Positions 216 through 10,261 of a DNA stretch of 44,729 nt are shown one piece after another. Made by a program: the position numbers and the translations under genes. The DNA comes from a virus. The notes beneath the pieces were generated by a model. That model worked only from the letters and a program-made list of their open reading frames with translations. It ran no database searches and was not told the DNA's origin. The stretch is taken from positions 1 to 44,729 of the IMG/VR virus record IMGVR_UViG_3300043409_001453, one strand, 5' to 3'. Position 1 is the stretch's first letter. The number at the start of each line of letters is the position of its first letter.

Positions 216-698
216 TCATTCGCGTTCCGAGCAGTAAGCCGCGTTTAGTGGCTCATTCCACAGCCAGGCCCACTCGGCCGCGGTCGACTCGCCCACGCAC
301 CAGGGACCGAATCCGCTCGCCCGCATGAGGTCGGCGGGGTCGGTCACATGGTGCAGCCCCATGACGTGCCCTGCCTCATGGGTGACGACCTCGGGCACCC
401 AGTACGCAGGCACGCCCAGGTCGATCGTGACGACCGCGTCGGAGTAGTCAGTACGCCGCCTGGTCGAGCCTGCAAGCCCGCCCGGCAGCGTGCCCCACTG
501 CCAGGCCACGCACGCCCTGGGCGGACCCTGGCAGGGCTGCTCGCGCCAGTCGAGCGTGGCACCTGCTGCACGCCAGTCGGCGACTGCTGCCTCGACGTAC
601 GGGCGCAGGCTGGGCGACTCGACGCTGAAGTCGGCGAAGCGCGGGTCGACCTCGGGCATACACCCAAGGGCGACGACAGCCGCGAGTGCCAGCCTCAT
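216..698 (-). CDS. Secreted metzincin-like zinc metalloprotease, lipoprotein
   Basis: A 160-residue protein with the complete metzincin motif HEAGHVMGLHH: His107, Glu108, His111 and His117 would bind zinc and catalyse peptide hydrolysis, and the Met in ADLM (about 125) could be the Met-turn. The chosen ATG at 698 gives a short lipoprotein signal peptide ending in the lipobox VALGC (Cys13). A longer upstream reading adds only a basic tail. The start overlaps the stop of the small gene before it (ATGA), so translation is probably coupled. It is the last gene of the early operon. A phage-encoded, membrane-anchored metalloprotease is unusual. It could act on envelope or competitor proteins, but the target is unknown. 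The motif is certain; the role is inference. Confidence 0.8.
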   Translation of the reverse strand: MRLALAAVVALGCMPEVDPRFADFSVESPSLRPYVEAAVADWRAAGATLDWREQPCQGPPRACVAWQWGTLPGGLAGSTRRRTDYSDAVVTIDLGVPAYWVPEVVTHEAGHVMGLHHVTDPADLMRASGFGPWCVGESTAAEWAWLWNEPLNAAYCSERE

Positions 699-823
699 GT
701 GCGCACCGCCACCGCGAAGCCGAGCAGCCACGCTGCCATGTCGGTGTGCCCAAGGACATGGCACGGCACCAAGTACCGCCCGCACCAGAAGGCGCGATCT
801 TCGACGCTGCGCATGTAGATCAT
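695..823 (-). CDS. Small hypothetical protein (42 aa)
   Basis: A short ORF placed by its neighbours. Its ATG at 823 overlaps the TGA of the upstream gene (ATGA), and its own TGA overlaps the ATG of the metalloprotease gene in the same way. The product begins MIYMRSVEDRAFW and ends with a moderately hydrophobic stretch (WLLGFAVAVRT). It fills exactly the gap between two coupled genes, which is the main reason to believe it is translated. No family is recognised. Confidence 0.55.
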   Translation of the reverse strand: MIYMRSVEDRAFWCGRYLVPCHVLGHTDMAAWLLGFAVAVRT

Positions 824-1620: not shown

Positions 1621-1946
1621 GACATCCCTCGACGCGACGAGAAACGCAGCGCCTCGAAGGCAAGCGTGCGCGCCTTGACGGCGATCCAGTCGGGCAGGCC
1701 CAAGCGCTCGATCGTCGCGAGCATCTTCCTGGCGCGCCCTTGCTCGCTGGACGTGCCGCGCGCGGCGACCTGGCGCAGCCCATAGACCTCGGGCGCTTCG
1801 CCGATGACATGCACGCCAGCGGCACGCACGCGCGCCCATGCCGCCCACAGTTCGGGCTGACGCGGGCTGAAGTCGTCGCCCCAGAAGAACACATATTGCC
1901 CGGTCAGCAGGTTGCGGGCGTAGTTTCGCGGGTGTGAAACGATCAC
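1617..1946 (-). CDS. Hypothetical protein
   Basis: A 109-residue protein. I chose the GTG at 1946 because it overlaps the TGA of the upstream HD-domain gene (GTGA), the pattern used throughout this operon. The first half contains YVFFWGDDFSPRQPELW, followed by a Rossmann-like strand-helix (ARVRAAGVHVIGEAPEVYGL). This loosely resembles nucleotide- or nucleoside-binding folds of the DprA/LOG kind, but a signature motif is missing. The function is unknown. Confidence 0.6.
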   Translation of the reverse strand: MIVSHPRNYARNLLTGQYVFFWGDDFSPRQPELWAAWARVRAAGVHVIGEAPEVYGLRQVAARGTSSEQGRARKMLATIERLGLPDWIAVKARTLAFEALRFSSRRGMS

Positions 1947-2548
1947 GGGTGTGCACCTTTCAGCTGGGCGAGGCGGTCGAGCCATAACGTGCACGCTTGC
2001 ACTGGCGTGCGCGTTCTGCCTAGTACCGCGTCGGCGTCGACATTCATGGCGTTGAGTGTATCGTGCCAGATGTCGAAACCAAAGTGATTTCGTGCCTGAT
2101 TGATCGACGCGACTTCGAGCGCGACCGACTCGGCCACAGCACACAGCAGGTCAGCGCGTCTGATCTCTGGCGTGTCGAGCTGCACGTGCCAGCGATCCTC
2201 GACCAGGCGATCGAACCCAGCACACAGCACGTCATGCGGGTGCGGCGTGCCTGGCGGCAGCATCGCGCGCTGCGCCTTCAGCACCGGACTGGGCATGTCG
2301 CCGAACACGGCTTCATGAAAGTCGTGCAGCAGTGCGCCCAGGGCATGCTCGGGCGGCGTCAGCCAGCTAGCCATGACGCAGTGTTCGGCGACGCTGAACG
2401 GTCGGCGCCAAGCGCCGCGCCATCGAGGCATGTGCGCCAGTGTCTCGACACTGAGCACTAGCGGCGGCAGCTGCGTGACTGGCAGCTCGACGGGCACGCC
2501 AGCGCGCAGCCAAACGAACAGCGGAGCGGTCATGCCGCGAGCGCTCAC
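1943..2548 (-). CDS. HD-domain phosphohydrolase, YfbR/DatZ-like
   Basis: A 201-residue protein. Residues about 38-100 carry the metal-dependent HD pattern of the YfbR (5'-deoxynucleotidase) family: a histidine in FSVAEHCVMA, then LLHDFHEAVFGDMPSPV, which supplies the HD pair, a Glu and the GD-P-P-V signature. YfbR removes phosphate from dNMPs. The related phage enzyme DatZ strips phosphates from dATP. Which substrate applies here cannot be read from sequence. The start is GTG 2548 (GTGA overlap); an ATG lies five codons in. It sits next to a second nucleotide-pool enzyme and the DNA polymerase, which favours a role in setting dNTP levels during replication. Confidence 0.75.
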   Translation of the reverse strand: MSARGMTAPLFVWLRAGVPVELPVTQLPPLVLSVETLAHMPRWRGAWRRPFSVAEHCVMASWLTPPEHALGALLHDFHEAVFGDMPSPVLKAQRAMLPPGTPHPHDVLCAGFDRLVEDRWHVQLDTPEIRRADLLCAVAESVALEVASINQARNHFGFDIWHDTLNAMNVDADAVLGRTRTPVQACTLWLDRLAQLKGAHP

Positions 2549-3186
2549 TTCGCACCCAGCGCTTCCTCGACAATGAAAGCTAGGCAGCAGATCGCGTGCG
2601 CCAGGTGCGGCTCGCCTGTCTCACTGTCGAGCTGTTCGCCGCGAGCGTGCGCGGCAATGTGGCGCAGCGCGGCTGCCAGGTAGCGGCGATCACGGTCGGG
2701 CACCTTGCGCCAATTGTCGGGCGCGTACTTGCGTGCGCCGAAGGTCAACACCCGCACGTAGCTTTCGAGCGCACGCCACTGCACCAGCGCCCAGTCAGGC
2801 TTCGCAGCGTCGAACTTGACGCCAGCAGCGGTCGAGCCGCCGGGCCCGCCTGGCTCGGGCGGCTCACCAGGCTCGGGTACCAGTGGCGGCGACGCATGCA
2901 CGTCGATGATCTCGACCAAATGCATGACGTTGGACATCCAAGCGTTGTCGACGCCCGACCCTGCGATGCCGTCATCGCGCTTGACGTGCGCGAACCCGGT
3001 CGGACCCAGCTTGACGACGACGCCACGCAAGCCAGGCCGCACGGCATCGCGCACGCGCATGCCGACCTCGATGCCGCGCACCGCGGGCATGTTCGGCTGC
3101 GTGTCGCGGCGCGGCGGACGCGCACCACGCGAGCGCAACGTCGGCGGCTTGTCTTCGGAGCCCTTGTCATCGTCACTTGTCGTCAT
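2545..3186 (-). CDS. dATP/dGTP diphosphohydrolase-like protein (DUF5664 type) with N-terminal SH3-like region
   Basis: A 213-residue protein. The C-terminal ~90 residues (GVKFDAAKPDWALV, then LTFGARKYAPDNWRKVPD, then HIAAHARGEQLDSETGEPHLAHA) match the phage family named dATP/dGTP diphosphohydrolase, formerly DUF5664, an all-alpha MazG-like fold. The N-terminal part (about 35-90) looks like a small beta domain, joined by a Pro/Gly linker. The start ATG 3186 has GAGG eight bases upstream; the longer frame reaches into the polymerase gene. Known members clear dATP or dGTP. In some phages this favours 2-aminoadenine DNA, but no PurZ gene is present here. Confidence 0.75.
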   Translation of the reverse strand: MTTSDDDKGSEDKPPTLRSRGARPPRRDTQPNMPAVRGIEVGMRVRDAVRPGLRGVVVKLGPTGFAHVKRDDGIAGSGVDNAWMSNVMHLVEIIDVHASPPLVPEPGEPPEPGGPGGSTAAGVKFDAAKPDWALVQWRALESYVRVLTFGARKYAPDNWRKVPDRDRRYLAAALRHIAAHARGEQLDSETGEPHLAHAICCLAFIVEEALGAK

Positions 3187-3196
3187 GGGGTTTGCC

Positions 3197-5548
3197 TCAC
3201 ACTTCAGACCAGCAGTCGCCGTCACCGATGTCGACGGGAAAGATCACGTCATGCGCGCCGACTCTGATCGGCGCCTCGAACAGCCGCACGCAAGTCGCCT
3301 TCGCTTCCTCGACCGCGCCGACCGGCACTTCAAACACGGCTGAGTCGTGCACCTGCGCGACCAGCTTCGCGCGCATGGGTGTGACCGCGTCGACGATCTC
3401 GGGCAGTCGCAAGTTCATGAGGTCGGCCGCGCCCGCCTGGATCGGGAAATTCGCGCATTCGGTCGGGCTGGGCTCGTGACCCAGCCAGCGTCGACGTTTG
3501 ATGATCGGTGACTCGACGTAGCCGCGCCGCACAGTGTCGGCAAGGTTCGCTTCCTGCCAGGTGTAGTACGCGGCGAACGCACGCCGCATGCGACGCAGCA
3601 TGCCTTCGACCTGCGACAGCGTGATCGGCGTACCGCTCGCCACGATCCGCGCGTACACGGTCTGGGCCTGCGCCATGTAGGCGACCGCGAAGCCCGCCGA
3701 CTTCGCCAGCGAGCGAAGCGCCTTGCGCCGGTCGCCTGTCGCTGCACTGAAGGGCGCGCCGAAGATCACGGCGGCATTCGCTGCGTGCAGGTCGCTCGAC
3801 TCGCACGCGGCGATCATGGCAGCGTCGCCGCTTGCGTACGCGGCGACGCGCATTTCCAGCTGCTTGGCATCGAAGGCGAGCAGGCGCGTGCCTGGTCGCG
3901 CGACGTACAGCGACCTGATGCCGCCCAGGTCGGCGGTCGGGTCGTTCTCTTTGCGTGGCAGGTTCATCAGGTTCGGACCCTGGCACGACCAGCGACCCGA
4001 CACCGCGCCGTAGTTCATCCAGGTCGGATGGATCCGACCCTTCGAGCTGACGGGCACCTTGATCACGTTCGTGCTGCGCACCTTCGTCACGCGCCGATAA
4101 TCCAGCACGGTCAATGCCAGATCGCGCAGCTGCTCGTCAGCGCACACCGCGTAAGCGCGCATTGCGTCGACGCCCAGGCTGGGCTGCTTGGTTGTCTTCG
4201 ACCGGAAGAACACAGGCGCGCCCATGCGCCCAAAGATCACGCGGCGCAGGTCGGTCGGCGACAGCAGGTTGATCCGCTCGCCCGCGAGTTCGCACGCCTT
4301 CTCAATCAGCTCGACCTGGCGCGCGGCGAGCGCGTCACCGAACGCACGCGCACGATCACGGTCGAAGGCGAAGCCGTTGACCTGCGCGTCGCGGCACAGG
4401 ATCGCCGCGCGCTTGTCGACCTCGTACACGTTGCGCACAGGGTCCAGGTCGCGCTGCATGGCTGACCACGCCAGCCGTGTGTAAAGCGTGTCGCGCCCAT
4501 TGTACACGTGCAGATCTTCGATCGCCTTGCTGTGCTCGAACTCTTTCCACGGCGGAACGCTGACGTAGTAACTCGCAACGTGCCCGAGGCGCTTGGGCAT
4601 GTGGCCTGCGATGGCGTGCGCCGCAAGCAGCGTATCTTCCCAGCGCCGCACGTGCATGCCGTAGCGGCGCAGCACAATGTGATCGAAGGCGGGCCCGTTG
4701 TGCGTGACTGCGACGCGGTCGCGCAGTGCCTTCGTAATCAGGCGCTTGATCGCTTTCGGATCAGCCCACCAGCACTCATGCCCGTTCGACGCCGTCGACC
4801 AGGGCAGCACAACGCTGGTGTGTGCGTCACTCAAGGCGAGACACACAAGGCGCGTGTGCGTCGGGCCAAGCCCGACCGTTTCGATGTCGACGCCGACGAC
4901 TTCGGCGAGCGCCGACAAGCGATCCGACAGCTCGGTCACGCTGTCAGCGATGACGATCTGCCTGCCGGGTTGTAGCTCGGGCGCGACCCAGCCGCGCCGC
5001 AGCACGTCGCCCAGGTGCGCGACGTCGCGTTCGAGGATCGGGGCCCACGCTTGGGCCCGGCGCACGAACTCAGGGTGCACCATTGCCATGACGCGAGCGC
5101 CAGCTTCGCCGCGCTGCGCGACAGTGCCGCGCCAGTTCAGGATCCGCGGCTTGCGTTCGAGCCTGCACACCGACTGCAAGGCGTACGCGCCCAGCGGCAC
5201 GATCGTGATGTCAGATCCGAAGGCGTCGAGCTGTGCCGTCAGTGCAGGGGCACACGCCTTGCGCGCCTTCGGCAAGTCGCCAGGCTCGACTGCGCAGGGC
5301 ACCGCGTGCAGCCAGGCGCAGTCATCGACGTCGAGCCCGATCGACTGCAAGCCGCGCGCGAACATGGGCCCGCCGCACAGCTGTCGCCCACGCTCGACCT
5401 CGTACCGCTGGGGCGTATCGGCGACGATGGTCAGGCGGGCCCGGCCAATGGCGGGCACCGCCTTCACCCAGGCGAGGTCGCGCCCTGGGCAAGCCGCGCA
5501 CGCAGTACCGCCTGGCTTGGCTTCTACTGCGTGCGCGGCGTCTGGCAT
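3197..5548 (-). CDS. Family A DNA polymerase with N-terminal UDG-like domain
   Basis: A 783-residue replicative polymerase. Residues about 12-185 align with family 4 uracil-DNA glycosylases, with four cysteines (17, 20, 85, 99) placed like their Fe-S ligands, but the catalytic box GE(G/A)PG reads ADTPQ (43-47) and the HP(S/A) motif reads HPE (158-160). Residues 215-360 are a proofreading 3'-5' exonuclease with its acidic residues intact (DIE 221-223, HNGPAFD 283-289, YNGRD 349-353). Polymerase motif A is DAKQLEMR (560-567), the O-helix has R612, K616, F620 and Y624 in E. coli Pol I spacing, and motif C is VHDS (733-736). Start ATG 5548 lies 8 bases after the previous stop. UDG-like domains fused to PolA are reported in a few phages, such as SPO1 as I recall. 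Confidence 0.93.
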   Translation of the reverse strand: MPDAAHAVEAKPGGTACAACPGRDLAWVKAVPAIGRARLTIVADTPQRYEVERGRQLCGGPMFARGLQSIGLDVDDCAWLHAVPCAVEPGDLPKARKACAPALTAQLDAFGSDITIVPLGAYALQSVCRLERKPRILNWRGTVAQRGEAGARVMAMVHPEFVRRAQAWAPILERDVAHLGDVLRRGWVAPELQPGRQIVIADSVTELSDRLSALAEVVGVDIETVGLGPTHTRLVCLALSDAHTSVVLPWSTASNGHECWWADPKAIKRLITKALRDRVAVTHNGPAFDHIVLRRYGMHVRRWEDTLLAAHAIAGHMPKRLGHVASYYVSVPPWKEFEHSKAIEDLHVYNGRDTLYTRLAWSAMQRDLDPVRNVYEVDKRAAILCRDAQVNGFAFDRDRARAFGDALAARQVELIEKACELAGERINLLSPTDLRRVIFGRMGAPVFFRSKTTKQPSLGVDAMRAYAVCADEQLRDLALTVLDYRRVTKVRSTNVIKVPVSSKGRIHPTWMNYGAVSGRWSCQGPNLMNLPRKENDPTADLGGIRSLYVARPGTRLLAFDAKQLEMRVAAYASGDAAMIAACESSDLHAANAAVIFGAPFSAATGDRRKALRSLAKSAGFAVAYMAQAQTVYARIVASGTPITLSQVEGMLRRMRRAFAAYYTWQEANLADTVRRGYVESPIIKRRRWLGHEPSPTECANFPIQAGAADLMNLRLPEIVDAVTPMRAKLVAQVHDSAVFEVPVGAVEEAKATCVRLFEAPIRVGAHDVIFPVDIGDGDCWSEV

Positions 5549-5556
5549 GGCTCGCC

Positions 5557-6066
5557 CTAGCTGCGGCGCTTGCGAGCCGCAGGCGCGGCACCTGCGTCGC
5601 CCGCCGGAGCACTGCCGGCGGCGGCTTCCTGGGCCTGGTCGCTGGTCAGGTAGCGATCGACGCGGGCGTTGACCTTGCCCTGGTAGGTTTCCTGCTTCAG
5701 GCGCACGAAGCCGGCGCCCGACTCCGACAGCGCCTGGGCGAACGCCTCGACGTGGTCGGGCGCGTTGCCGGGCGGCGGCTGCACGTCGAGCGCCTTCGCC
5801 AGCTGCTTGGTGCGAAACAGTGCTTCCTTCGTCAGCGTCAGTTTGTCGTACACCTTGCGCTTCATGTCGCCGGCACTGCCGCCCATGGCGTGCGTGATCG
5901 TCAGCACCAGCTTGACGCCCGGGTCGCCTTTCTTCGTCTGCTCGGGCTCCGCTTGCGCGATCTGGAAGCCGTAGATCCCAGCTTCGAGCGGCGGCGGTGC
6001 GTCTTCGCTGACGCTATCCCAGTCGAAAGAGTCGTTGTTTGCCCAGCCTGCTTGATTGGTTGCCAT
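5557..6066 (-). CDS. DUF669-like single-stranded DNA binding protein
   Basis: A 169-residue protein. The N-terminal half fits the phage DUF669 pattern: FDWDSVSEDAPPPLEAGIYG, then EQTKKGDPGVKLVLTITH, then a dimer-like strand with KVYDKLTL. These proteins act as single-strand DNA binding proteins beside recombinases. The acidic/alanine-rich end carries a short basic tail (ARKRRS). The start ATG 6066 is preceded by an AGAAAG-type ribosome site. It lies between a Sak4-like ATPase gene and the polymerase gene, consistent with coating single strands at replication forks. In-frame upstream sequence crosses the tRNA-like element and was left out. Confidence 0.75.
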   Translation of the reverse strand: MATNQAGWANNDSFDWDSVSEDAPPPLEAGIYGFQIAQAEPEQTKKGDPGVKLVLTITHAMGGSAGDMKRKVYDKLTLTKEALFRTKQLAKALDVQPPPGNAPDHVEAFAQALSESGAGFVRLKQETYQGKVNARVDRYLTSDQAQEAAAGSAPAGDAGAAPAARKRRS

Positions 6067-6137
6067 GTGTGTGTTGATCGCTTTCTGTTTCGGGGTTGCA
6101 TGCATGTCCGACACGCTTGCGTGCCGAACGGGAAAGT

Positions 6138-6229
6138 GAACGACGTGCGGGGTTCGAACTCGCATTCCAGGCGTCGAGCGCCCGGGCCTAACCATTGGCG
6201 GCTATGCCGCGCTTAGCTGAACGTCGTTC
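6138..6229 (-). tRNA. Possible tRNA-like element (identity unclear)
   Basis: Read on the minus strand, a 7-base acceptor ACGACGT (6227-6221) pairs perfectly with ACGTCGT (6146-6140), extendable to 9 pairs. A T-arm with loop TTCGAAC (6158-6152) sits directly before the 3' acceptor strand, with a 5-base stem holding one A-C mismatch. The body between is longer than in a normal class I tRNA. It can form GCTA/TAGC with a D-loop-like AGCGCGGCA, a GCC/GGC stem-loop containing GGTTA, and a CCGGGCG/CGCCTGG hairpin. No clean anticodon loop with U33 emerges. It may be a class II-like, degenerate or co-opted tRNA. The 170-base gap is conspicuous in an operon where genes otherwise overlap. Confidence 0.35.
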
Positions 6230-6236
6230 GGTTGTC

Positions 6237-6974
6237 TTAGGGCGCTAGCCCCAGCGCGTTGATCAGGTCGGCGAAGGTCGCGGGCACCATGTGCGTGCGC
6301 TTGATGTTTCGACCGCTGTGCGTCCACGCCTTCTGTGGCCCGAGCAACCAGGCACGCTCAGCATCGCGCCCGCCGATCTTCCGACCGGGCTCGATGTCGA
6401 GTAACACCCAGTCATCGAGCAGCGCGGGCAGCCTGACTTTCAGCTTGCCGCCGATGGCAGGCAGGATGCCCGCCGCGGCGTCAGCGTCGGGCGTCATGTG
6501 CGCGTTAACGAACAGGTGCGCGGGCATGTCGCGCATCAGCTTGATGCCTTTGATCACCGTGTTCGCGAGTTCGATCCAGACGTCCCAGCCCGTCATGGTG
6601 ACGCTGATTTCATCGAGCAGCGTGTCGGCAAGCAGGCTCGCCGTGTCGACCACAACCGTGCGCACCTTGCCTTGCTCAGCCAGCTGCGCCGCGCCTCGAC
6701 ATGCTGCAAGCCACGACTTGATCCCCGTGACGTCGACGCTCGCGAACTTGGCGCCCTGGTTGGCTGCGCCCTTCGTCGCGTTCGCGCCGTCGCAATTGAT
6801 GATCAGCGGCTTCGGCGCGCCAAGCACGACGCACGTGGTCTTGCCCGCCTTAGCCGGGCCCAGCACCATGACGCGCGCGAAGGCGGTGTCGATCGCGGTG
6901 TCCTGGTCATACACTTCGAGCCCAGGGATCGCGATCAAGGGTTCGGCGTCAGCTGTATTTTCGTCGACACTCAC
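6237..6974 (-). CDS. Sak4-like RecA-fold ATPase (AAA_24 type)
   Basis: A 245-residue NTPase with Walker A GPAKAGKTT (39-47) and a Walker B strand ending TVVVDTAS. Its size and layout match phage Sak4-like proteins, a reduced RecA fold that promotes single-strand annealing or helps replication when paired with a cognate SSB. The SSB-like gene is immediately downstream and an exonuclease gene lies two genes upstream, making a typical phage recombination set. The start is GTG 6974, overlapping the upstream stop. It could instead be called a generic phage nucleotide-binding protein; the neighbours favour Sak4. Confidence 0.8.
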   Translation of the reverse strand: MSVDENTADAEPLIAIPGLEVYDQDTAIDTAFARVMVLGPAKAGKTTCVVLGAPKPLIINCDGANATKGAANQGAKFASVDVTGIKSWLAACRGAAQLAEQGKVRTVVVDTASLLADTLLDEISVTMTGWDVWIELANTVIKGIKLMRDMPAHLFVNAHMTPDADAAAGILPAIGGKLKVRLPALLDDWVLLDIEPGRKIGGRDAERAWLLGPQKAWTHSGRNIKRTHMVPATFADLINALGLAP

Positions 6975-7201
6975 GACTCGCCGCCCTTGGCTTCGTTGCC
7001 CGCACGCTTGCCGCGCGTCTTCGGCAGGCGCTGCGCCGCGAGGTCGAAGCGCGCAGCCGCCGCGTCGGCGGTCGCGCCGATCGTGGTTTGCGTGGCGCGC
7101 GTCGCCTTCTGGATCACGGCGACGATGCTGCGCGCGATCATGACGTGCGCGAGGATCGCGAACAGGCTGATCAGGATCTGAATGAGAATGAGAATGATCA
7201 T
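6971..7201 (-). CDS. Small membrane protein
   Basis: A 76-residue protein whose first ~30 residues are almost entirely hydrophobic (MIILILIQILISLFAILAHV), forming one transmembrane helix. An amphipathic, Ala/Thr-rich segment and a basic C terminus (KTRGKRAGNEAKGG) follow. The start ATG 7201 overlaps the nuclease gene stop (ATGA). It sits between two recombination genes, so it might tether DNA metabolism to the membrane, but that is speculation. No family is recognised. Confidence 0.65.
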   Translation of the reverse strand: MIILILIQILISLFAILAHVMIARSIVAVIQKATRATQTTIGATADAAAARFDLAAQRLPKTRGKRAGNEAKGGES

Positions 7202-8091
7202 CGGGTTTCTTCCTTCGTTGCTACGGGGCCCACGCTATACAGCGTAGCCCGGTCATCGTCGCTGCCATGGCACCAGGCGAACGCCCAGCACCGCTGCTGG
7301 GGGCGCGGCACGCAGGCGTGCGGATTGTACAGCGTCACGTCAGGCAGCACGCCGTGCGCCAGATATTGCTGCGCTTCGGTGTGCCAGGACATGATCGCGT
7401 CATCGAAGCTGATGACCACGCGACGGAAGCGCGGCACCTTGACCTTGACGATCACGTCGGCGATCACGTCGGGCCAGTACGACAGGCCGCGCGCTTCGCG
7501 CACCAGCGCCGACAGCTGCGCGAACTGCGGGCGGGTGCGATACTCGGCCGCAAGTTCGTTGTCGCCGACGCCTTCGCGCAGGCCCGCCATGGTCTTGTAA
7601 TCGACGACCGCAACGCGCCCGCCGACCTCGACTTCGAGATCAGATCGGCCGGTCGTGCGCACGCCTTCGAGCACAGCGTCGTGCCCGACCTCGACGCCCA
7701 GCACCTTGGGCCAGCCGCCGTCAGCGCCCCATCGGGCGACGTACGCTTCGACCAGGCGACGCGCTTCGGCGACCGACTCTGGGTCATGCTCGAAGCCGGC
7801 GAGCACTTCAGGCGTCAGCACGTCGAGGTCATCGCGCGTGCGCGGCCAGGCACCCAGGGCGTACGCCCGGCAGGCGTGGAATAGCTTGCCGATTTCGAGC
7901 GCGGGCGCGGTGTCGATGGGCGTCACGCCCATGCCATAGCGCAGGTGCGCCGCCTTCGGGCAGCGCGACAGCTCAGCCCAGCGCGTGCTGCCCCACTGCG
8001 TGAAGGTGTCGGCGAGCGCCAGGCGCGCGTCAGCCAGGTCGCGCGCGTCTTCGATCGAGTCGACGCGCACGACATACACGCCGTCAGTCAC
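7198..8091 (-). CDS. PD-(D/E)XK exonuclease with Cas4/AddB-like cysteines
   Basis: A 297-residue nuclease of the RecB/Cas4 group. Catalytic positions are His72 (GKLFHA), Glu134, Asp151 (GRSDL) and Asp164/Lys166 (VVDYKT). One cysteine before the core (Cys44, SRCPKA) and three after it (Cys260, Cys268, Cys274, the last pair as C-x5-C) resemble the split Fe-S ligands of AddB and Cas4. The start GTG 8091 overlaps the upstream stop. A much longer open frame to 8547 is arginine-rich shadow. It would resect DNA ends to supply single strands to the Sak4-like/SSB pair. The iron-sulphur cluster is inference; the C-terminal spacing is looser than in the type proteins. Confidence 0.85.
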   Translation of the reverse strand: MTDGVYVVRVDSIEDARDLADARLALADTFTQWGSTRWAELSRCPKAAHLRYGMGVTPIDTAPALEIGKLFHACRAYALGAWPRTRDDLDVLTPEVLAGFEHDPESVAEARRLVEAYVARWGADGGWPKVLGVEVGHDAVLEGVRTTGRSDLEVEVGGRVAVVDYKTMAGLREGVGDNELAAEYRTRPQFAQLSALVREARGLSYWPDVIADVIVKVKVPRFRRVVISFDDAIMSWHTEAQQYLAHGVLPDVTLYNPHACVPRPQQRCWAFAWCHGSDDDRATLYSVGPVATKEETR

Positions 8092-8318
8092 AGCGACACC
8101 GACCAGGACGCGAGCGCCAGCATGATCGCAATCAGGCAGGTGCACGCGACAGCCGCCGCGCACCATGCCGCGCCCGCAAACAGGCTGTGCCTGCGATGAC
8201 TGACACGTGCGCGTTCGATCGCCGCGAGCATGCGCGCGACGTCGGCGCTGGTGTGTTCCTCGACCATGGGCGCGACAGTAGCAAGCTGCGCATGGCAACC
8301 CAAGAAATCTTTTGTCAT
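8088..8318 (-). CDS. Small membrane protein
   Basis: A 76-residue protein with a soluble helical N terminus (about 1-45) and one C-terminal transmembrane helix (LFAGAAWCAAAVACTCLIAIMLALASW). The start ATG 8318 shares its final A with the upstream TGA (TGATG), indicating coupled translation. No family is recognised. The topology resembles a tail-anchored protein and not a holin, and it is not close to the lysis genes. Confidence 0.65.
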   Translation of the reverse strand: MTKDFLGCHAQLATVAPMVEEHTSADVARMLAAIERARVSHRRHSLFAGAAWCAAAVACTCLIAIMLALASWSVSL

Positions 8319-10153
8319 CAGTGCGCCACCTTCGCGACTGCTTGCGTGCGTGCGTCTTCGACCATGCCCCACAGCTCGCCGGTTGGGTGCTTGTCGTACA
8401 GCGCGCACAGTTCGAGCAGTGCGGTTGCGTCGCCCATGGCGAGGCGCGTCGCGCACAGCTCAGCCGTGACACGCCACTGCGCAAACGACCGTTGCACCAG
8501 GAAGCCGCCAGCGTTCGCGCTTGCCGGCACCCGCGCAGCGAAGTCAAGGTGTCGCTTAGCGTCGCGCAGCAACCCAGCCAGGCGATACTCGCGCGCCAGT
8601 TCGGTGCGCGCTTCGAGGCGCATAGGGTCGATAGCGACCGCCATCTGATACCAGGTCACACGGTCGCGCGTGTCGGCTGCGGCGCGTGCCAGCCACAGCG
8701 CGGACAAGTATCGTTCGTCGTTGTAGCCGTCCGGCAGATCGACACGCGCACGAAATGCCCAGTCGGCGATCTCGCGTTGACCTGCGTCGCGCGCCGACTG
8801 CGCCAAGTAGTACCACGCGCGCGTGTTCGTCCGGTCGTGCATGACCTGCCCGAGGAAAGTCACGACATCGCGCCGGAAGCGCGCAGCCTGGTCGGCCGCA
8901 GATGCCGTACCATTGCCACCGTCCCGCAGGTTGTCGACGACCAGGTTGCAGGGCACGCACGCGCCATTGCCGCGCGGTGTCGCGTGTCGTTCGCCGTAGT
9001 ACGCCCAGCCCGCGTCGAGCCTGAATATGCGGGGTGACGTGACCTCCCAGTCGCCAGCCAGCAGGCGCGTGACGCTGTACGCCGCAGCGTCCAGCACAGG
9101 CGGCAGGTCGCCGCCCACGCAGTGCTCATCAGCGTCGAGGATCCAGGCGTACTCATAGCCGGCGGCGCGGGCGTCAGCGAGGATCTGCGTTTGGTTGCTT
9201 GCGAAGCCCAGCCACGGGCGCGACGTGACCTTCAGTGGCAGGTCGAGCGCCGCGCAGATCTCGAACACTTCGCGCAGCGTGTTATCGGTGCAGCCTGTGT
9301 CACACACCACCACGCCGCCGACGAAGCGCGCCGCGCCTTCGATGCACCGGGCGATAACGCCGGCTTCATTGCGCACGTTGATCGCAACGCACAGGTTGCC
9401 GATCGTGCGGCGCGGGATCGCTGCCTTGACGTACGACCAGCTGCGCGGCGGGTCGCTCTCGACCAGGTTGCCGAAGCGCTCGCGCACCGCGTGCTTGACC
9501 GTGCCTGGCCTGTCGTAGTCGTGCCCAGCCAGGCAGCCGTCGAGCTTGATCTTCGGCAGCCACGCCCGGATGTCGGCGCGCACAGCTTCGAGGCTGTGAT
9601 CGCCGTCGAGGAACACGAACGCCAACGACTCGGGCGCGAAGCGATTAGCGGCTTCGAGCGACGGCATGCGCAGCACCTTGATCACGCCGCTGACGCCAGC
9701 GTCGGCAATGTTGCGTAGGAAGTCGGGCAGCAGGTCAGCGCCCGCGCCCAGCTGCTTGTCGATGATCATGGTGTCGCGCCAAGGGTCGACGCAGAACAGG
9801 TTGATCGCCTTACCGCTGCGCTTGATCGCCTGCGCCAGGTAGATCGCTGACTTGCCGAAGTAGCTGCCGACTTCGACGAACGTGTCGCCGTCGGCACTGC
9901 GCTCGACTGCCGCGTCGTACACGTCGGCATAGTCGAACCAACCCGGTACCTGGTCGAGGTCGAAGGCGGGCGGCGGTGCGGGCGCGGCAGGCTCGACATT
10001 GATCGGCCACAGCATGCACCCGCAGTTCCCGCCCGCGCCTTCGCACCCGACAAGCGGGCCATAGTGCGCGCTGCGCAGGCAGCCGCACGCCGCACACGCG
10101 ACCGTGTCGCGCAACCCGATCAAGCCGCCACCAGCCTGGTGTCCCTCACTCAT
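8318..10153 (-). CDS. Zinc ribbon / SAM methyltransferase / GT2 glycosyltransferase / TPR fusion
   Basis: A 611-residue multidomain protein. Residues 20-46 hold six cysteines in a zinc-ribbon-like array. Residues 60-245 are a class I methyltransferase of the Methyltransf_24 kind (SAM loop TFVEVGSYFGKS 91-102; FLDGDHS 181-187). Residues 250-420 are a GT-A glycosyltransferase of family 2, with INVRNEAGVIARC, DTGCTDNT (285-292) and the metal-binding DAD (340-342). Residues 430-600 form TPR-like helical repeats. The start ATG 10153 has a strong AGAGGA site; about 108 bases separate it from the upstream gene. Such enzymes usually modify surface glycans or proteins. Its place in the replication operon leaves a nucleic-acid target possible but unproven. 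Confidence 0.85.
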   Translation of the reverse strand: MSEGHQAGGGLIGLRDTVACAACGCLRSAHYGPLVGCEGAGGNCGCMLWPINVEPAAPAPPPAFDLDQVPGWFDYADVYDAAVERSADGDTFVEVGSYFGKSAIYLAQAIKRSGKAINLFCVDPWRDTMIIDKQLGAGADLLPDFLRNIADAGVSGVIKVLRMPSLEAANRFAPESLAFVFLDGDHSLEAVRADIRAWLPKIKLDGCLAGHDYDRPGTVKHAVRERFGNLVESDPPRSWSYVKAAIPRRTIGNLCVAINVRNEAGVIARCIEGAARFVGGVVVCDTGCTDNTLREVFEICAALDLPLKVTSRPWLGFASNQTQILADARAAGYEYAWILDADEHCVGGDLPPVLDAAAYSVTRLLAGDWEVTSPRIFRLDAGWAYYGERHATPRGNGACVPCNLVVDNLRDGGNGTASAADQAARFRRDVVTFLGQVMHDRTNTRAWYYLAQSARDAGQREIADWAFRARVDLPDGYNDERYLSALWLARAAADTRDRVTWYQMAVAIDPMRLEARTELAREYRLAGLLRDAKRHLDFAARVPASANAGGFLVQRSFAQWRVTAELCATRLAMGDATALLELCALYDKHPTGELWGMVEDARTQAVAKVAH

Positions 10154-10192
10154 TTTTATTCCTCTTTTTCTCGGCAGTCTGTGCAGTTTCCG

Positions 10193-10230
10193 CCCTGGCT
10201 GCCCCGCCCCCGCAGGGCGAGGCGCCAGGG
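10193..10230. other. Inverted repeat upstream of the methyltransferase-glycosyltransferase gene
   Basis: CCCTGGC (10193-10199) and GCCAGGG (10224-10230) form a 7-base stem, with a shorter GCCC/GGGC stem possible inside. It lies in one of the few real intergenic gaps of the early operon (10154-10261). There is no T-tract on either strand, so an attenuator or an RNA processing site is as likely as a terminator. Confidence 0.35.
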
Positions 10231-10261
10231 TAGCATTTGCGGCATTTGTTCCCAAGTTTTC

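Follow-up and report, generated by a model that had tools for sequence, protein, structure and literature searches.

An N-terminal uracil-DNA glycosylase-like domain with a rewritten uracil pocket on a phage DNA polymerase I

Introduction

What does a uracil-DNA glycosylase (UDG)-like domain do on a phage replicase when the pocket that should hold uracil has been rewritten? The question is raised by a DNA polymerase gene in a 44.7 kb IMG/VR record (IMGVR_UViG_3300043409_001453, 66% G+C), the full length of which is referred to here as the window. The record includes tail sheath, baseplate, portal and major head genes, and is therefore that of a contractile-tailed phage. A preliminary description, made from the sequence alone, had suggested that the domain is either a damaged-base reader that has lost cleavage or a glycosylase of changed specificity, and had regarded its linkage to a replicase as notable.

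Domain architecture of the polymerase

Pfam searches agree with the preliminary description in assigning the ORF at 3197-5548, on the minus strand, to a DNA polymerase I-type enzyme of 783 aa with an N-terminal UDG-like domain. The gene and its domains are as follows.

3197..5548, minus strand: polA, encoding a UDG-like domain, a 3'-5' exonuclease and a family A DNA polymerase (783 aa; ORF list, Pfam)
4994..5509, minus strand: N-terminal UDG-fold domain, residues ~14-185 (PF03167; AlphaFold2 model superposed on family 4 UDGs)
4454..4960, minus strand: 3'-5' exonuclease domain with DIET, HNGPAFD and YNGRD (Pfam; sequence)
3200..4426, minus strand: family A polymerase domain, residues 375-783 (PF00476, 178.8 bits; Foldseek matches to Klenow, KlenTaq and Bst)

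The UDG family PF03167 was matched at residues 36-165 (39.3 bits, cut-off 24.3, E 8e-10) and DNA_pol_A at residues 400-782, while the exonuclease match at residues 204-339 scored 22.5 bits, slightly below its cut-off of 23.6, with the exonuclease motifs present. The order UDG, 3'-5' exonuclease and DNA_pol_A within a single protein is that of SPO1-type PolA, and the window protein is a UDG-superfamily domain on an SPO1-type PolA, the phage's own replicase. It carries the full SPO1-type residue set, with exonuclease D, E / D / Y, D in DIET, HNGPAFD and YNGRD, and polymerase D, E / R, K, Y / H-D as D560, E565, R612, K616, Y624, H734 and D735. The polymerase and exonuclease motifs are thus intact, as had been stated, with two small caveats: motif A (residues 560-565) reads DAKQLE and not DYSQIE, and motif C (residues 734-736) reads HDS and not HDE, its second acid being Ser, likewise in SPO1. 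The Ala-Lys pair that replaces Tyr-Ser in motif A is common to the window and a related record, IMGVR_UViG_3300046714_000194 (L002).

Fold and family of the UDG-like domain

The AlphaFold2 model of the UDG domain (pLDDT 84.7, pTM 0.83) has the predicted alpha/beta fold of UDGs and superposes on 1L9G (TM 0.71/0.74) and 1VK2 (TM 0.71/0.75) with E about 1e-10, the TM of this predicted model ranging from 0.65 to 0.75 across the family 4 structures of Tth UDGa (1UI0), T. maritima TM0511 (1VK2) and S. tokodaii (4ZBX). Superposition on UDG folds had been proposed as a check on the domain assignment, which it leaves in place (TM 0.71-0.75 on family 4 UDGs). Well above chance, a profile of the window domain and its relatives recovers family 4 UDGs of known structure at E values as low as 1e-52. 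The PF03167 match and the fold superposition together bear out that a domain of the UDG superfamily is joined in cis to a replicase.

With the solved family 4 UDGs (1UI0, 1VK2, 4ZBX) the domain shares the fold, the equivalents of E47 and H155, and four Fe-S-type cysteines (C17, C20, C85, C99), which align with the family 4 4Fe-4S ligands. Unlike them it is not stand-alone, and it falls outside family 4 as judged from motif 1 (ADTPQ in place of GE(G/A)PG), from Asn80, the contact to uracil N3/O4 (His81 in the window), and from the NCBIfam family 4 model TIGR00758 (25.6 bits, far short of the cut-off of 125.3); in motif 2, HP(S/A), His-Pro is kept and the third residue is Glu. Judged in the same way it is not UdgX either. 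M. smegmatis UdgX, a UDG relative with non-standard chemistry, resembles it in fold (TM about 0.66), but the UdgX R-loop KRRIH is absent from window residues 81-110, GEQPG is absent from residues 43-47, and no match to TIGR03914 (UdgX) was reported for the window.

The rewritten uracil pocket

Every motif quoted in the preliminary description is present at the residues given for it below.

5489..5500, minus strand: Cys17-x2-Cys20, first two Fe-S-type cysteines, aligned with the Tth UDGa and L002 cysteines
5408..5422, minus strand: motif 1 ADTPQ, residues 43-47, replacing GE(G/A)PG, with E41->D44 and G42->T45 (alignment)
5294..5308, minus strand: motif 3 H81-A-V-P-C85, with His at the uracil-binding Asn80 position (the Asn of the TN motif) and Cys85 as third cysteine (alignment)
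5252..5254, minus strand: Cys99, fourth Fe-S-type cysteine (alignment)
5069..5077, minus strand: motif 2 H158-P159-E160, with the catalytic His155 equivalent kept and S/A->E (alignment)

The uracil pocket of Thermus UDGa (1UI0) consists of E41, G42, E47, F54, N80 and H155 (PMC5387724), which align with D44, T45, E50, L57, H81 and H158 of the window protein. Four of the six are substituted (E41->D, G42->T, F54->L, N80->H); E47 and H155 are unchanged. The window sequence has a deletion where N89, which plays a minor part in catalysis, would lie, and the Arg of the HPxxxxR segment, a DNA contact at the LR position, is kept (HPEFVRR). In Tth UDGa, N80 substitutions lower k2/Km more than 40-fold, E41Q lowers it about 1000-fold, E41D is also substantially less active, G42D brings a loss of about 100-fold and F54A of about 17-fold, and H155S by itself, at the position where the window keeps its His, costs more than three orders of magnitude (PMC5387724). 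Because published mutagenesis of these same pocket positions lowers activity, there is good support for predicting that the window domain does not excise uracil at a useful rate, its excision being very weak or absent. The loss of normal uracil excision that had been anticipated from the rewritten site is thereby upheld as a prediction. Fold and DNA contact may persist in the domain despite it.

Relatives and grades of the pocket

Neither the fusion nor the altered pocket proves to be unusual, as the preliminary description had taken them to be. UDG-exo-PolA is a common phage architecture. Bacillus phage SPO1 gp31 scores 79.6 bits for PF03167 ahead of its exonuclease and polymerase domains, and resembles the window protein in this order within one polypeptide, in being a phage replicase, and in a rewritten pocket with HP kept (QENPF / S / HPN); it differs in having lost the Fe-S cysteines, in an intron with a homing-endonuclease gene, and in a polymerase that belongs to another clade. 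The family A polymerase of Thermus phage phiLo (PDB 9QHS) is a phage PolA of known structure that carries a UDG domain at its N-terminus, and the motifs of this domain, unlike those of the window, are canonical (GEAPG / TN / HPS); a literature search found no paper on 9QHS. A canonical phage UDG domain used as query matched 114 phage records, and most among the matches listed are annotated as DNA polymerase. Some UdgX chains in the PDB were named 'Phage SPO1 DNA polymerase-related protein' by their depositors; kinship with the SPO1 polymerase has therefore long been recognised.

In the aligned set, polymerase-fused UDG domains fall into three grades. The canonical grade (GE(A/G)PG/N80/HP) comprises L002 (GEAPG/TN/HPA), L003, L005, L007, L020, L021, L027, L032, L044-L049 and phiLo. 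The pocket-rewritten grade lacks N80 and, in most members, F54 or Gly44 as well, but keeps an acid at E47 and His-Pro; it includes, by motif 1 and the residue at the N80 position, the window (ADTPQ/H), L042 (ADTPI/H), LysYB1 (ADNPT/G), the Lebethron group (GDNPN/P), SPO1 (QENPF/S), L029 (QENPY/A), L057 (QDSPL/S) and L064 (GDAPN/P), with motif 2 as HPN in SPO1, HPD in LysYB1, HPA in Lebethron and HPS in L042. In the collapsed grade, found in Gordonia, Mycobacterium, Streptomyces Zuko and Microbacterium Huwbert phages and others, the His is also lost. Intermediates are L041 (GESPS/N/HPA), L009 (LEAPA/N/HPA) and L058/L059 (GEAPG/S/HPA). A rewritten pocket is common among the fused members, and UDG-PolA with such a pocket is already known from SPO1 and others; the window adds a further case.

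Phage DnaE also carries a UDG-like domain, at its C-terminus, which with PolA makes two replicase families in all, and bacterial DnaE with a UDG domain (DnaEX) has been reported (PMC3919608). These proteins, including those of phages B1VFA, nickie and RHEph10, resemble the window protein in bearing a PF03167-type domain on a replicase, with altered motifs in the phages, and differ in the C-family polymerase, in the C-terminal position of the domain and in the loss of the catalytic His in the phage cases. In L054, L055 and L061, phage DnaE (PolIII alpha) proteins, that His is replaced within SPG, NPA and NPG. Two further arrangements were seen among the records. L051 (2944-6693), L052 and L053 have a LAGLIDADG-type intein within the polymerase UDG domain, beginning at the third Fe-S-type cysteine (SNSMLC). 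In L012 (1-548) a separate 'ttudgA-like' gene with an altered motif 1 (GGGPT) lies shortly upstream of a PolA without UDG domain, a possible unfused counterpart.

Evolutionary history and constraint

The polymerase tree groups the window with L002, L041 and L042 in one clade (100/100), in which it lies outside the other three (99/92). L002, whose polymerase is 50-54% identical to that of the window, shares its domains and cysteines and differs in its canonical pocket and its split polymerase. Since L002 is fully canonical, this clade spans both types of pocket over a short evolutionary distance. On the starred branches, the canonical/non-canonical label requires at least 5 changes in the polymerase tree, and loss of N80 requires at least 3 in the UDG-domain tree, in window/L042, in the SPO1-LysYB1 group and in the Lebethron group. 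The same pocket has been lost independently in several phage lineages. ADTP together with His is common to the window and L042, which are joined at 87/76 in the UDG tree and stand apart in the polymerase tree; recombination and a shared origin are both candidate explanations.

Sequence identity differs in pattern among the rewritten groups. The UDG domain is conserved as much as or more than the polymerase between SPO1 and LysYB1 (48.7% vs 43.5%) and between Lebethron and L023 (75.6% vs 72.8%), which speaks for a kept function; on this comparison the rewritten domains do not appear to be simply decaying. No domain is less conserved than the UDG domain in the window clade (42-46% vs 54-57% for the polymerase, window against L002 and L041), and its faster evolution there also fits relaxed constraint. 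The ancestor of the window domain would have been an active, family-4-like uracil-DNA glycosylase whose fusion to PolA is ancient; its pocket was presumably rewritten at the four positions in the window lineage while the fold, the four cysteines, His-Pro and the flanking Arg were kept.

The window polA retains the fused form, unlike its three relatives, which encode the UDG-exonuclease part and the Pol part in two separate ORFs (L002:3624-7374; L041:2899-6339; L042:2744-6339). The split point is alike in all three, at window residue ~366-372, inside a long helix that the model places at 343-391. Other ORFs lie between the halves, HNH nuclease genes among them in L002 and L041. An intron was considered as the cause of the split; an Rfam search of L002 and the window matched no introns or other RNA families, and separate genes are the better reading.

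Possible function on the replicase

We favour, with moderate confidence, the reading of the window domain as a former glycosylase that no longer excises uracil efficiently and, as part of the replicase polypeptide, serves to bind DNA, by analogy with vaccinia D4. That the domain now serves replication and not repair is probable; its role as a tether, drawn from the poxvirus analogy, is less certain. The UDG-like domain would grip or slide along DNA near the fork and hold the polymerase there, much as the poxvirus UDG D4 does as a separate subunit of its replicase, and loss of cleavage would be advantageous at that site because base excision on a single-stranded template yields abasic blocks. 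Vaccinia D4 with A20 is the processivity factor that makes the polymerase processive (PMC10253040, PMC11142717), each encounter of vvUNG with DNA lasts for about 4200 steps (PMC10253040), and MHV68 vUNG does not depend on its catalytic residues for binding to the polymerase and processivity factor of the virus (PMC10312458). The likeness to the D4-A20-E9 holoenzyme, a UDG-fold protein of a different family as polymerase processivity element, is one of analogy, since D4 is a separate subunit bridged by A20, serves a family B polymerase and is an active glycosylase. For this reading speak the repeated loss of the pocket, the conservation of the domain in the SPO1-LysYB1 and Lebethron groups, the canonical pocket of the close relative L002, and the presence of UDG-like domains on two replicase families, PolA and, at its C-terminus, phage DnaE. 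Net charge, taken as a proxy for DNA binding, averages +4.4 in canonical, +3.6 in rewritten and +1.0 in collapsed domains, with no clear difference between canonical and rewritten, and is uninformative. The kept equivalents of His155, the foremost catalytic residue of family 4, and of the pocket residue Glu47 argue against selection for complete inactivity, and since relatives with fully canonical pockets share the fusion, the fusion itself does not require inactivity.

That same catalytic His is the best argument for a still active glycosylase of changed specificity, in which His155, Glu47 and Asp44/Thr45/His81 would form a new pocket for a different deaminated or modified base, such as hypoxanthine, xanthine or hmU, in co-replicative repair. 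His-Pro and the acid at E47 are kept in all pocket-rewritten members and lost in the collapsed ones; position 42 is Asn or Thr alongside loss of N80 in most rewritten members, so that the pocket change looks co-ordinated; ADTP with His joins the window and L042 in the UDG tree against the polymerase tree; and in other UDG families changes in motif 1 have given rise to new modes of catalysis (PMC5387724). This reading is nevertheless unlikely: ADTP with His at N80 occurs in none of the characterised active UDGs found by search, the base-holding N80 and F54 are both lost, and the NCBIfam family 4 cut-off is far from reached.

A non-cleaving reader, which would sense a template base that is flipped or deaminated before the polymerase reaches it and would stall the enzyme without cutting, like the uracil read-ahead pocket of archaeal PolB or UdgX binding, would fit the predicted loss of cleavage with fold and motif 2 kept, and UdgX is a UDG-fold protein shifted from simple excision to binding (PMC10359453). 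It too is unlikely, as precisely the uracil-selective N80 and F54 that a uracil reader needs are lost, and the UdgX loop is absent by sequence. Least likely is an evolutionary relic, in which the domain would do no more than cap the exonuclease, retained for the sake of folding and in slow decay towards the collapsed grade of Gordonia/Mycobacterium phages; the graded series from canonical through rewritten to collapsed does exist and the UDG domain is the least conserved in the window clade, but the window keeps four cysteines, His-Pro and frame, and in the SPO1 and Lebethron groups conservation of the rewritten domain matches that of the polymerase.

The interest of the domain lies in the repeated, independent rewriting of one pocket in polymerase-tethered UDG domains and in the matched canonical relative. 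A literature search found no explanation of what the UDG-like domain does on SPO1-type phage polymerases. Tentatively, and with somewhat less confidence than for the window domain itself, phage replicases of two polymerase families may repeatedly and independently have turned a tethered UDG into a module that holds DNA or reads lesions but does not excise, a parallel to poxvirus D4, the window clade with its canonical relative catching this conversion over a short evolutionary distance. The window and L002 form a matched pair (54% identical polymerase domains, rewritten vs canonical pocket) on which a repair or a replication role is directly testable. If the tether role is correct, it would extend beyond poxviruses the reuse of a repair enzyme as polymerase accessory, and would offer natural processivity modules for polymerase engineering.

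Genome context

A further observation in favour of the tether role is the location of polA in a recombination/replication module, which also includes SNF2 and UvrD helicase genes. Neighbouring genes are as follows.

1943..2548, minus strand: HD-type deoxynucleoside 5'-monophosphate phosphatase (phrog_318, E 2.7e-19; weak YfbR-like PF12917)
2545..3225, minus strand: dATP/dGTP diphosphohydrolase (PF18909, 107 bits; phrog_801)
5557..6195, minus strand: ssDNA-binding-protein-like gene of the replication module (phrog_378, E 1.7e-5)
6237..6974, minus strand: Sak4-like ssDNA annealing ATPase (phrog_124, PF13479)
7198..8547, minus strand: PD-(D/E)XK exonuclease (PF12705, phrog_69)

The two dNTP-pool enzymes said to adjoin polA are both confirmed (PF18909, phrog_318), but their link to polA is not conserved in L002, L041 and L042: PF18909 lies about 4 kb from the UDG ORF in the L002 record and is absent from the L041 and L042 records. 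Several genome-level links were considered and set aside. A Z-genome (aminoadenine) set of PurZ with DatZ/MazZ/DpoZ is not indicated, with no adenylosuccinate synthetase (PurZ family, PF00709) in the window or the three relatives, whose records may be incomplete, and a DpoZ model score of 56.6 against a cut-off of 500. Nor is a uracil-DNA genome, with no dUTPase (PF00692) in the same, possibly incomplete, records. A second intact UDG elsewhere is not seen either, each record of the window and relatives having one PF03167 match.

Searches of genome contigs gave no prophage relatives pointing to a host. The window encodes a small lipoprotein-like metalloprotease with HEAGHVMGLHH (216-785, minus strand) and L002 a Gly-rich lipoprotein-like ORF (9470-10063); both products resemble myxobacterial proteins, which we take to be a weak hint at the host. 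Within the replication module, the window also carries a fusion of Methyltransf_24 with a family 2 glycosyltransferase (8318-10255, minus strand).
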